Position numbers and translations under genes: made by a program. 64,000 nt of DNA from Sodalis-like secondary symbiont of Drepanosiphum platanoidis. GTDB taxonomy: Bacteria; Pseudomonadota; Gammaproteobacteria; Enterobacterales; Enterobacteriaceae. The DNA lies in contig NZ_OZ060924.1 in NCBI RefSeq assembly GCF_964059955.1, forward strand, positions 372,001-436,000, in the 5' to 3' direction. How positions within the stretch are numbered: position 1 is the stretch's first letter; each line of letters starts with the position of its first letter. Positions 39,627 to 44,250 of the stretch are shown in pieces. The notes under the pieces are model-generated. The model made no database searches and was not told the origin of the DNA. It saw only the letters and a list, made by a program, of their open reading frames with translations.

Positions 39627-40448
39627 TTATTTATATTTTTTAAGAATATTTTTTGTATAAAAATTAGATAAACTACAATATTGTTTTAAAGTAATATTTT
39701 CAGCTCGTAATTTTTCATTTATACCTAATATTTTAAATTCTTTAATTTTAAAAAAATTTTTTAAACTTTTTTTTATAGTTTTTCTTCTCTGATTAAATGC
39801 TGAAAATACAATATTATTTAAAGTTTTTTTACAATAAATAAAATATTTTGGTTTTTTATAAGGTAAAAAATAAACTAATGAAGAATTTACTTTAGGAATT
39901 GGACGAAAAGCAATAGAAGGTATATCTAATACTGATTTAATATAACATTTATATTGTGCCATAATACTTAATTTTCCATAAGATTTATTATTTATTTTTC
40001 CGGTTAAACGATTAGCTACTTCTTTTTGAAACATTAAATACATATCATCAATATATTCGATATATTTAAATAAATGAAATAATAATTGAATTGAAATATT
40101 ATATGGAAGATTTCCAATTATTCTTAATGATTTTTTTTTATTATTACATAATTTAGATAAATTTATTTTTCTAGCATCTGATTCAATAATATTTATATTT
40201 TTTTTTAAAATATTATTTAATAATAAATAAGAAGATAAATTTTTATCAATTTCAATAACAGTTAAATTATTATTTTTTTTTAAAATTGGATATGTTAAAG
40301 AACCAAAGCCAGGACCTATTTCTATAATATTTTGATTTAATTTAGGATTAATAATTGAAATAATAGAATTAATTAATTTTTTATCTATTAAAAAATTTTG
40401 TCCAAAAAATTTTTTTACTTTATAATTTTTATAAATATATTTATTCAT
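39627..40448 (-). CDS. ksgA: KsgA, 16S rRNA dimethyladenosine transferase
   Basis: Dimethylates A1518 and A1519 near the 3' end of 16S rRNA, a late step of small-subunit assembly. The 273 residues equal E. coli. KFFGQNFLIDKKLI and IIEIGPGFGSLTYP form the S-adenosylmethionine site, NLPYNIS is the catalytic motif, and the C-terminal block SAFNQRRKTIKKSL binds rRNA. It follows surA on the minus strand with 193 empty bases where E. coli has pdxA. apaG and apaH, next in E. coli, are absent. Confidence 0.97.
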   Translation of the reverse strand: MNKYIYKNYKVKKFFGQNFLIDKKLINSIISIINPKLNQNIIEIGPGFGSLTYPILKKNNNLTVIEIDKNLSSYLLLNNILKKNINIIESDARKINLSKLCNNKKKSLRIIGNLPYNISIQLLFHLFKYIEYIDDMYLMFQKEVANRLTGKINNKSYGKLSIMAQYKCYIKSVLDIPSIAFRPIPKVNSSLVYFLPYKKPKYFIYCKKTLNNIVFSAFNQRRKTIKKSLKNFFKIKEFKILGINEKLRAENITLKQYCSLSNFYTKNILKKYK

Positions 40449-40641: not shown

Positions 40642-41919
40642 TTAAAATTTATTATATATAATTTTTATATAAGCATTTGATTTAATTTCATTTATCCATT
40701 TTTTTAATTCAATTTTAAATTTATAATTTAATAATTTATTATAAGATATTTGATCAATTTTTTTTGTATTATATATTTCATTTATATTTAAAATTTTAAT
40801 ACAATTCCATTTTTTATTTAAATAAAAAAATGGACTAATTTCTCCTTGTTTAAGGTTAATAATTTTTTTTAAAAAATTATAATTAATTATATTTTTATTA
40901 TTTTTTTTATTTAAATTATTATTAATTATTTTTTTTTTCTTAAAAATAAAATTATTATATAATAAATCATTATTTTTAATTTTTTGTATTAATTTTAATG
41001 AATTAAAATATTTATTTTTACAAAAAAAATTTGAATGAAAATTGAAACTCATATGATATAAATTAATTTTAGTAACTATTTTTTTTTCATTATTACAATA
41101 TATATCATGAATTTTTAAAATATGAAAACCAGCATTTGAACGAATTGGTCCAATTATTGTATTTTTTTTAGTATTTTTTAAATAATAATGAAATATCTTA
41201 GGAAGATCATTATAATTAATCCATCCTATTTTTTCTAAAATAATTTTTCTTTTTTTTGTAGAAAAAATATTAATTAATTTTTTAAATTTAATATTTTTTT
41301 TACTTTCTATAAAAAATAAATTAGATAAAATTTTTAATTTATTTATTTTATAAGAATTATCTGTTTCTTTTAATGGAATTAAAATATGACTAATTTTATA
41401 TTCATTAATTTTTTTTTTATTAATAATATTATTAGTTAATGTTTTTATTTCTTCTGGAAGAATATTAATTCTATTTAAAATTTCTTTATTTTTTAATTTA
41501 AAAATTAATATTTCTTTTTTAATTTTTTCAATAAAATCTTTATAATTAATATTTAAATTTATTAAATATTTTTTTAATGTATTTTTAGTAAAATTATTAT
41601 TTTTAATAAATTTTTTTAAAAAATAATTAATTTCTTTTTTATTAATAAATATTTTTTTTTTAAAAGATTGTTCTAAAATTAAAGTATCTATTATTAATTT
41701 ATTAATAATTTTTTTATATATATAAGATTTATTAATTATTTTTTTTTTTATGTATTTATTTTTATTTAATTTCATTAAAAAATATGTTAAATAAACATCA
41801 CTTTTTAAAATAATATTATTATTTACAATTGCAACAATTTTATTTAAAATTTTTTCTTGTGAAAAAATATTTTGAGAATAAAGTATTAATAATAAAAAAA
41901 TAATTTTTAAAGATTTCAT
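40642..41919 (-). CDS. surA: SurA, periplasmic chaperone / peptidyl-prolyl isomerase
   Basis: Escorts unfolded outer-membrane proteins, including LptD, to the BAM complex. The 425 residues (E. coli 428) start with a signal peptide (about 1-20, hydrophobic LLLILYSQNIFS). The chaperone domain follows (KIVAIVNNNIILKSDV), then a parvulin-like domain with YKISHILIPL, GWINYNDLP and GPIRSNAGFHILKI, and a more eroded second one ending WNCIKIL. The order lptD-surA is as in E. coli, 54 bases apart. Confidence 0.94.
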   Translation of the reverse strand: MKSLKIIFLLLILYSQNIFSQEKILNKIVAIVNNNIILKSDVYLTYFLMKLNKNKYIKKKIINKSYIYKKIINKLIIDTLILEQSFKKKIFINKKEINYFLKKFIKNNNFTKNTLKKYLINLNINYKDFIEKIKKEILIFKLKNKEILNRINILPEEIKTLTNNIINKKKINEYKISHILIPLKETDNSYKINKLKILSNLFFIESKKNIKFKKLINIFSTKKRKIILEKIGWINYNDLPKIFHYYLKNTKKNTIIGPIRSNAGFHILKIHDIYCNNEKKIVTKINLYHMSFNFHSNFFCKNKYFNSLKLIQKIKNNDLLYNNFIFKKKKIINNNLNKKNNKNIINYNFLKKIINLKQGEISPFFYLNKKWNCIKILNINEIYNTKKIDQISYNKLLNYKFKIELKKWINEIKSNAYIKIIYNKF

Positions 41920-41973: not shown

Positions 41974-44250
41974 TTAAAAAATTGTTTGATATGGTAAAAT
42001 ATTTGAAATAAATTTTATATTTTCTAAAGAATTTTTATTTTTTAATCCATTTAATTCAAATTTTAAAAATATTTTATTTTTATATTGATTTTTTATTTTA
42101 TTAGAATTAATAAAACTTTTTGAAAATCCTAAATTAATAGACCAATAATTTCTATTATATTTTATTCCTATTGCTTCATGCATTATTTTTTTATTTTTAA
42201 AATTATAATAAAATGAACCTATAAAAAATATAGATTTATTTAATGGATAACTTCCAATTAAACTAAATTGTTTAGAATTATTTATTTTTGTATGTTTTTT
42301 TTTAAAAAATTCTGTTAATAAATTATGATAACTTAAAAATAATGTATTCATTTTATTATTATTAAATTCAATAATAATATCTCCTATTTTTAATTTTTTA
42401 TATGAATTTTGATATTCTAAAATACAATAAAATTTTAATTTATTATTTATATACCAATATAAATCACTTATGTAAAAATCACTACCTATATAAGGTATAT
42501 GATTAACTTTTGAATTATTAATAATATTTTTATAAGAAAAAAAATAAATTTGTCCTATTGAAGCATGAAATTTTTCAATTGCTTTAGAATTATAAATTCT
42601 AGTTGTAATACCTATTGGTAATTGATTAGCTGAAGAAATTCTATCTATATTATTATATAAATAATCTCTAAAAATATTTATATAATTAGTTTTTAATATA
42701 GAAGTATCATATAATTTTATATTATTTTGATCTTTATATGGAATATATAAATATTTTGCTTGAATTTCTAAAGTTTGAATATATTTATCTAAAATTTTTA
42801 TATTTCTTTCTAATATTATTTTTCCATGAGTTTTAAATTGAGGTAAAAATCTATAAATAATACTTCTATTATATTTTTGTTTAAAAAAAGTATTTTTATT
42901 TTTTTTTAAATTACTTATTTTATAATAAGTATTCATTAATTTTATTTCTGTATTTAATTTTCCTAAATAATTAAATAAAAATAAATTTATTATTGGTTCT
43001 GAATGAAATCTTATTACATTAATTTTATTTTTATAAATATTAGTAAAATATGTTATTTGATTAAATAATTTAAAACTAAATGGACCTTTTTTATCACTTT
43101 CATAAAAAATTTCTATTTGAGGTTTTTTTTGAAAATTATTATTAATTTTTTTATTTAAACTATAAATTTTATTATATTTTATATAAGCATCCCATTTTTT
43201 ATTAGAAAAATGTAAAATAAAATCTTTTTTAATAAATCCTTTTATCATATCTCCATAATTTAATTTTATTTTTTTAAAAAAATCTAAATCATTACTATTT
43301 ATATAATTTGTATGAAATTTCCAATGTTTATTTAATATAAAATTATATTTCCAATATAATAACCATTTATTTTTTTTATAAGATTTTTTATTAAAAAATA
43401 AATTAAATTTTAATAATCCATTTATATTTTTTTTTAAAAATCTTGTTTCTATTTCAATAAATTTTCCTATTTTTTTTATATAATGTGGAATTATAATAAA
43501 ATTATATTTTTGAGAAAAATATATATAATATGGAATTTTAAATTCTATACCATTATTATGTTTTTTCTTTAAAGAAGGCATAAGAAATTTAAATTTATTT
43601 TTTTTTTTTATAGGAATTTGTATATAAGGTGTATAAAAAATAGGAATTTTATTTATTTTAAAATATACATTCCATATATTTATTATTTTTTTTTTATTTT
43701 TATAAATAATTTTTTTTCCTAAAATATTCCAAATTTTATTATTTAATGAATTACATGTAAATGTAACATTTTTTGCAATTGTATAAAATTTTTTTATATT
43801 ATATTTAATATAATCATATTTTCCATATCCATAAATATTATTAATTTTATATTTTCCATCAAAAATACATATTTTTTTTTTATTTAAATTTAATTTAAAA
43901 TTAGATCCTTTTAGATTAAAATTTTTCCCTATATAATTTACATTTCCATAAGCATTTATTTTATAATTATTTTTTTTTAAAAAATAATTATTTTTTTTAA
44001 TTATAATTGAATCAGCAAATAATTTATTTTTTTTATATAAAATTTTAACATTTCCAGATAATATTGTTTTATTAGGATAAATATGTTTTATTTTTTTTGA
44101 AAAAATATATAAATTTAAATTATTAAAATTTTTTTGATAAGTAAAAGGTTCAAAAAAATTATTAATTTCTTTTGAAGAAGCTAAAGTTTTTTTATAAAAA
44201 AAAACTATACAAATTAAAACAAATAAAAATTTTAATATTTTATTTTTCAT
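41974..44250 (-). CDS. lptD: LptD, LPS-assembly outer-membrane protein
   Basis: Outer-membrane beta barrel that inserts lipopolysaccharide into the outer leaflet. The 758 residues (E. coli 784) have a signal peptide (about 1-25, cleavage near ASS). A beta-jellyroll domain follows (SGNVKILYKKNKLFADS, the OstA repeat), with the conserved NVYFKINKIPIFYTPYIQIPI entering the 26-strand barrel. Of the four E. coli disulfide cysteines only the second seems kept (Cys166 in FTCNSL). The mature N-terminus has none, and the C-terminal Cys pair is replaced by NY in GIKYNRNYWSINLG (about 695-708). Two other cysteines (Cys128, and one near 615) are not at family positions. Confidence 0.93.
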   Translation of the reverse strand: MKNKILKFLFVLICIVFFYKKTLASSKEINNFFEPFTYQKNFNNLNLYIFSKKIKHIYPNKTILSGNVKILYKKNKLFADSIIIKKNNYFLKKNNYKINAYGNVNYIGKNFNLKGSNFKLNLNKKKICIFDGKYKINNIYGYGKYDYIKYNIKKFYTIAKNVTFTCNSLNNKIWNILGKKIIYKNKKKIINIWNVYFKINKIPIFYTPYIQIPIKKKNKFKFLMPSLKKKHNNGIEFKIPYYIYFSQKYNFIIIPHYIKKIGKFIEIETRFLKKNINGLLKFNLFFNKKSYKKNKWLLYWKYNFILNKHWKFHTNYINSNDLDFFKKIKLNYGDMIKGFIKKDFILHFSNKKWDAYIKYNKIYSLNKKINNNFQKKPQIEIFYESDKKGPFSFKLFNQITYFTNIYKNKINVIRFHSEPIINLFLFNYLGKLNTEIKLMNTYYKISNLKKNKNTFFKQKYNRSIIYRFLPQFKTHGKIILERNIKILDKYIQTLEIQAKYLYIPYKDQNNIKLYDTSILKTNYINIFRDYLYNNIDRISSANQLPIGITTRIYNSKAIEKFHASIGQIYFFSYKNIINNSKVNHIPYIGSDFYISDLYWYINNKLKFYCILEYQNSYKKLKIGDIIIEFNNNKMNTLFLSYHNLLTEFFKKKHTKINNSKQFSLIGSYPLNKSIFFIGSFYYNFKNKKIMHEAIGIKYNRNYWSINLGFSKSFINSNKIKNQYKNKIFLKFELNGLKNKNSLENIKFISNILPYQTIF

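Follow-up and report, generated by a model that had tools for sequence, protein, structure and literature searches.

How can an LPS translocon be built around an LptD that has lost every cysteine of its interdomain disulfides? E. coli reportedly cannot do without LptA, nor without at least one disulfide in LptD, and both proteins are targets for drugs. If a natural genome retains LPS synthesis and the remaining Lpt genes but has neither LptA nor an LptD disulfide, it would separate two roles of the disulfide, that of holding the domains of LptD together and that of giving a licence for the docking of LptA. The question arises from an lptD gene in the window (the whole 64,000-nucleotide stretch of DNA that was analysed, with a GC content of 11-24% across it), which belongs to a source genome of 472,091 bases in two contigs that is 98.4% complete. 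The family of this genome spans 5-Mb enterobacteria as well as many genomes of 0.3-0.8 Mb, a size pattern that appears typical of insect endosymbionts.

Despite its divergence, the gene is recognisable as lptD by several measures. The product exceeds the cut-offs of both Pfam LptD families (LptD, PF04453, 188.6 bits against a cut-off of 22.4; LptD_N, PF03968, 31.4 bits against 20.4), so that barrel and jellyroll can still be recognised, as the initial annotation had it. The NCBIfam equivalog model for LptD (NF002997) aligns over positions 1-781 of 783 with 511.6 bits, which falls short of its cut-off of 683, presumably because the model was tuned on less divergent members. With E. coli K-12 LptD (b0054, part of the LptDE translocon) the protein shares the gene order around surA, the two domains and 29% identity in a full-length alignment, and it retains 49% of 237 non-cysteine invariant sites. 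The fold agrees as well: a Foldseek search with an AF2 model, itself of low confidence (pLDDT 61.7, pTM 0.47), returned solved LptD structures for all top matches (TM 0.73-0.78), the first four with E values of 1e-51 or better. A decayed pseudogene was considered and rejected, as a frame of this length (758 codons) at 12% GC would be expected to contain about 89 stops by chance, yet it stays open (P ~4e-42). The positions of the gene, its neighbours and the codons discussed below are collected in the table.

Table. Positions in the window of lptD, its neighbours and the codons relevant to the interdomain disulfides.
Feature	Positions	Strand	Remark	Basis
lptD	41974..44250	-	intact frame of 758 aa; lacks all interdomain-disulfide cysteines	
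surA	40642..41919	-	periplasmic chaperone of LptD; order same as in E. coli	
rsmA	39627..40448	-	a neighbour in E. coli too, though without the intervening pdxA here	
Cys128 codon	43867..43869	-	N-terminal domain strand; aligns with E. coli Asn134	AF2 model, alignment
Cys166 codon	43753..43755	-	E. coli Ser172 column	alignment
Asn167 codon	43750..43752	-	E. coli Cys173 column	alignment
Cys609 codon	42424..42426	-	mid-strand of predicted barrel; aligns with E. coli Gly624	AF2 model, alignment
Asn701-Tyr702 codons	42145..42150	-	E. coli Cys724-Cys725 columns	alignment

The only cysteines encoded are Cys14, which lies in the signal peptide, Cys128, Cys166 and Cys609. E. coli LptD uses Cys31, Cys173, Cys724 and Cys725 for its interdomain disulfides, and none of these four aligned columns holds a cysteine in the window LptD: the Cys31 column is a gap, or Asn in a second alignment, and the remaining three are occupied by Asn167, Asn701 and Tyr702, respectively. 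The initial annotation was therefore right that the mature N-terminus has no cysteine and that the C-terminal CC is replaced by NY. It was off by one residue in taking Cys166 for a preserved equivalent of Cys173, since in the ungapped register (FTSCLPGSDTW in E. coli, FTCNSLNNKIW in the window) Cys166 comes one residue early and matches Ser172. Asn701 and Tyr702 are predicted by the low-confidence AF2 model to lie in a turn between two late strands, the place of the E. coli CC pair, which is described as sitting in the 24-25 turn (PMC12644819). Without a cysteine in this turn neither native interdomain bond can form, and the proposal of the initial annotation that this LptD is assembled without an interdomain oxidative step holds up, no partner cysteine remaining on the barrel side of the turn.

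Could a new disulfide, for example Cys166-Cys609 or Cys128-Cys166, have replaced the old ones? Three cysteines are left in the mature protein and Cys166 adjoins the old site. The low-confidence model, however, taken together with the alignment, places Cys609 in the middle of a barrel strand and not in the turn of the CC pair, and it puts Cys128 and Cys166 both into the N-terminal domain, so that these two could at most bond within that domain. Neither DsbA nor DsbB was detected (see below), which argues further against a new bond, and we regard this explanation as hardly credible.

To see the loss in context, LptD sequences were aligned in 64 rows. One locus, L001, was omitted as it is the window gene, and the LptD of G159 (L054), which is broken and lacks the C-terminus, was aligned but not counted; the LptD of G062, which is in three pieces, was left out. 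Stop codons interrupt LptD in both of these reduced genomes, G062 and G159, where the gene is caught in decay. All 62 other full-length rows keep both Cys173 and Cys725, as do 80/80 named enterobacterial loci, several of which come from genomes of the same alignment. Unlike the source genome, the other reduced genomes that encode a full-length LptD, 31 in number, have all kept this pair, while 15 of them have lost Cys31, Cys724 or both, examples of such loss being G007, G073 and Candidatus Gullanella endobia (L102). Nor is the window LptD the extreme of the set: six of the 31, G007 and G073 being cases of equal or greater divergence, retain 27-49% of the invariant sites, against 49% in the window LptD, and keep the pair. 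For the 15 reduced genomes with less than 75% of the invariant sites, the probability that all would keep both cysteines if these behaved as ordinary invariant sites is ~1e-9, a value that overstates independence, as the rows are related. This retention in the most divergent rows leads us to conclude, from the alignment, that Cys173-Cys725 and not Cys31-Cys724 is the pair under strong selection in reduced genomes. Taken alone, the loss of all four cysteines is not improbable under drift at the divergence of the window LptD (~0.07). The standout feature is that, among the genomes examined, the window LptD is the sole loser of the Cys173-Cys725 pair. AT pressure by itself was rejected as a cause, as the lptD gene of G234, at 14.2% GC, keeps Cys173, Cys724 and Cys725.

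The initial annotation linked the missing cysteines to loss of the Dsb system, after which they would have been useless and drifted away with no involvement of LptA. One part of this link stood. Neither DsbA (PF01323, the family by which an intact dsbA was sought) nor DsbB (PF02600) has a Pfam match in the source genome at its 98.4% completeness. Drift after Dsb loss would also agree with the value of ~0.07 given above and with the fate of BamA, whose Cys690 and Cys700 are replaced by Tyr and Ser in the source genome (L148 9033-11444, minus strand) and are likewise lost in G007, which also lacks Dsb; the BamA pair is kept in G060, G077, G112, G154 and G254, the comparison covering 13 of the 31 other reduced genomes and G021, which has no LptD. 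The part of the link that fell is Dsb loss as a sufficient cause. Both DsbA and DsbB are missing from 5/34 LptD-bearing reduced genomes, namely the source genome (G000), G007, G060, G077 and G112, and the latter four all keep Cys173 and Cys725, three of them with all four cysteines, although three of the four are less divergent than the window LptD. Thus Dsb loss alone does not release the cysteines. Background oxidation may be sufficient for the genomes that keep the pair without Dsb. On balance, we consider drift following Dsb loss a rather unlikely explanation, albeit one that deserves to be taken seriously. Three further reduced genomes (G106, G152 and G173) have a match to DsbB and none to DsbA by PF01323; they have either another partner for DsbB or a divergent DsbA.

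The second loss, which the initial annotation had not noticed, concerns LptA. The gene order in E. coli is kdsD-kdsC-lptC-lptA-lptB, whereas in the source genome lptC is followed directly by lptB, the two being separated by a 190-bp spacer at 1% GC (L156 3297-3930; G000:C1 about 288296-288929) with a contiguous junction that contains no N. A search with PF03968 found no second, LptA-type locus in the source genome, and a second or LptA-sized locus was found in 14 of the 15 LptD-bearing genomes tested; the test covered 13 of the 31 other reduced genomes, unlike the source genome all positive (13/13), and one free-living genome. A 10-row LptA model also returned nothing from the source genome at E<=10. 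The same model recovers four out of four held-out symbiont LptAs (3e-23 to 4.5e-28), from genomes whose LptDs are more divergent than the window LptD (27-31% of invariant sites kept), and finds nothing in the LptD-less control G033. The seven-part Lpt bridge (LptA-G) is accordingly without a detected lptA gene in the source genome.

An LptA might nevertheless be present and have been missed, through an assembly gap or misassembly at lptC-lptB or through its divergence, in which case the loss of the cysteines would be unrelated. The genome is 98.4% complete in two contigs, and the junction is known from the assembly alone. Against this, the canonical site is contiguous, free of N and closed by the AT-only spacer, and the LptA model detects LptAs from genomes in which LptD has diverged further. 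A missed LptA thus strikes us as very unlikely. The lptA gene of G007 (L160 2250-2820) is split over two frames across a T7A9 run, with both halves recognisable; this looks like a frame change, a sequencing slip or slippage in the T/A homopolymer, and G007 was scored as LptA-bearing despite the stops.

LptC of the source genome is shortened as well. The protein has 147 aa, stopping ~45 residues early, and corresponds to E. coli residues 1-143 of 191 and to Pfam LptC positions 2-135 of 175. By contrast, the tail is retained in 10/10 other reduced genomes in which it is visible; of the 12 relatives' loci compared, three (G073, G154 and G184) had nothing that matched LptC at E<=0.01. The shortening of LptC does not by itself imply the absence of LptA, since in E. 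coli C-terminally deleted LptC is described as tolerated when LptB is plentiful (PMC4986956). The source genome is alone, among those tested, in having lost both LptA and the LptC tail.

Otherwise the LPS line is largely in place. The genes found in the source genome include rseP, bamA, skp, lpxD, fabZ, lpxA and lpxB, then msbA, lpxK and kdsB, further kdsD, kdsC, lptC and lptB, the last at 61% identity, and finally lptF and lptG. Loss of LptE was considered and rejected: the Pfam LptE search is empty and the NCBIfam match lies below its cut-off, yet lptE, with a lipobox, is flanked by leuS and holA, as in E. coli. The search for lptE, for the lpxA-D genes and for the bam genes, which the initial annotation had named as a check, thus returned lptE, lpxD, lpxA, lpxB and bamA. 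Genes for LptB, LptC, LptE, LptF and LptG are all present, with the reservations that LptC is short and LptE scores under the NCBIfam cut-off. Open frames at about 12-20% GC were found for lptD, lptE, lptF, lptG, lptB, msbA and the Lpx genes examined (lpxA, lpxB, lpxD and lpxK), and LPS synthesis is probably maintained in the source genome. The kdsD gene (L156 4494-5500, minus strand) is open, with 40% identity to E. coli, and lacks an in-frame ATG, GTG or TTG at its beginning; upstream, a run of A is preceded by an ATG in a different frame, so that the beginning of the gene appears to have undergone a frame change at poly(A).

These open genes bear on another explanation, by which LPS export is failing: a deletion would have removed lptA together with the tail of lptC, and LptD would be at the onset of decay. 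Among relatives whose genomes are of similar size, many indeed lack LptD altogether (88 of the 392 family genomes gave no match, those listed being small genomes), and G062 and G159 carry broken copies. The examined genes from lptD to the Lpx set, however, are all open at their low GC content, and a cell that makes LPS without exporting it should suffer harm, so that the synthesis genes would be expected to go first. We hold failing export to be unlikely.

What is unusual in the source genome is that three things are gone together, namely the disulfide cysteines of LptD, LptA and the tail of LptC, with the remaining genes of the line open. We propose, with a probability of roughly 0.45, that LptD is maintained here and that its Lpt line has given up LptA and, alongside it, the oxidative checkpoint. 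The N-terminal domain of E. coli LptD is reported to contact LptA in vivo only after at least one native disulfide has formed, a requirement that keeps immature translocons from sending LPS to the wrong place (PMC3944529), and translocon function is described as needing at least one of the two LptD bonds (PMC10567701). Since the contact between LptD and LptA needs the native disulfide in E. coli, loss of LptA matches the role of this disulfide: once LptA is gone, the licence that the disulfide gives has no customer.

According to our proposal, LptD would fold and insert with the help of SurA/Skp, BamA and the LptE plug, without a disulfide between beta-taco and barrel. The oxidative checkpoint would have been lost together with the step that it guarded, LptA and the LptA-facing tail of LptC both being gone. 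LPS would then most likely pass from LptB2FG and the shortened LptC, or from LptF/G directly, to the beta-taco of LptD with no LptA between them. The LptD disulfide, along with any need of LptD for Dsb, would have become dispensable in this way; loss of Dsb would have removed the oxidant and would have been insufficient by itself. The computation shows that the four cysteines are absent, that the other LPS and Lpt genes examined are present, that LptC is short and that LptA, DsbA and DsbB are undetected; we infer translocon function, the LptA-free bridge and the causal link between the two losses each from one genome. Several points count against the proposal: the link between the losses rests on n=1, as no second LptA-less LptD was found; Tyr58 of the window LptD is conserved at the place of E. 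coli Tyr63, which crosslinks to LptA; E. coli tolerates a C-terminally deleted LptC, as noted above; and the lptE product has no match to Pfam LptE. The more specific idea that LPS is exported in nature without LptA, by direct transfer from LptB2FG and the shortened LptC to the LptD beta-taco, and that the disulfide is dispensable exactly there, is put forward tentatively, with the odds clearly against it.

If this idea is correct, the conserved purpose of the LptD disulfide would be to license the docking of LptA and not to hold the translocon together, and loss of Cys173-Cys725 should be open to LptD genes only where the genome lacks LptA. In those parts of the literature that our search covered, we found neither an enterobacterial LptD devoid of cysteines nor an Lpt line lacking LptA described. 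The six-protein Lpt bridge of the E. coli LptF R212 suppressors resembles the source genome in that one jellyroll part of seven is missing, and differs from it in which part this is: LptC is missing and LptA required in the suppressors as described, whereas the source genome lacks LptA and keeps a short LptC (PMC9972910). As a separate observation, LptF of the source genome (L162 9202-10302, plus strand) has, in a loose alignment, a Leu at the position of E. coli Arg212, the residue whose change bypasses LptC.
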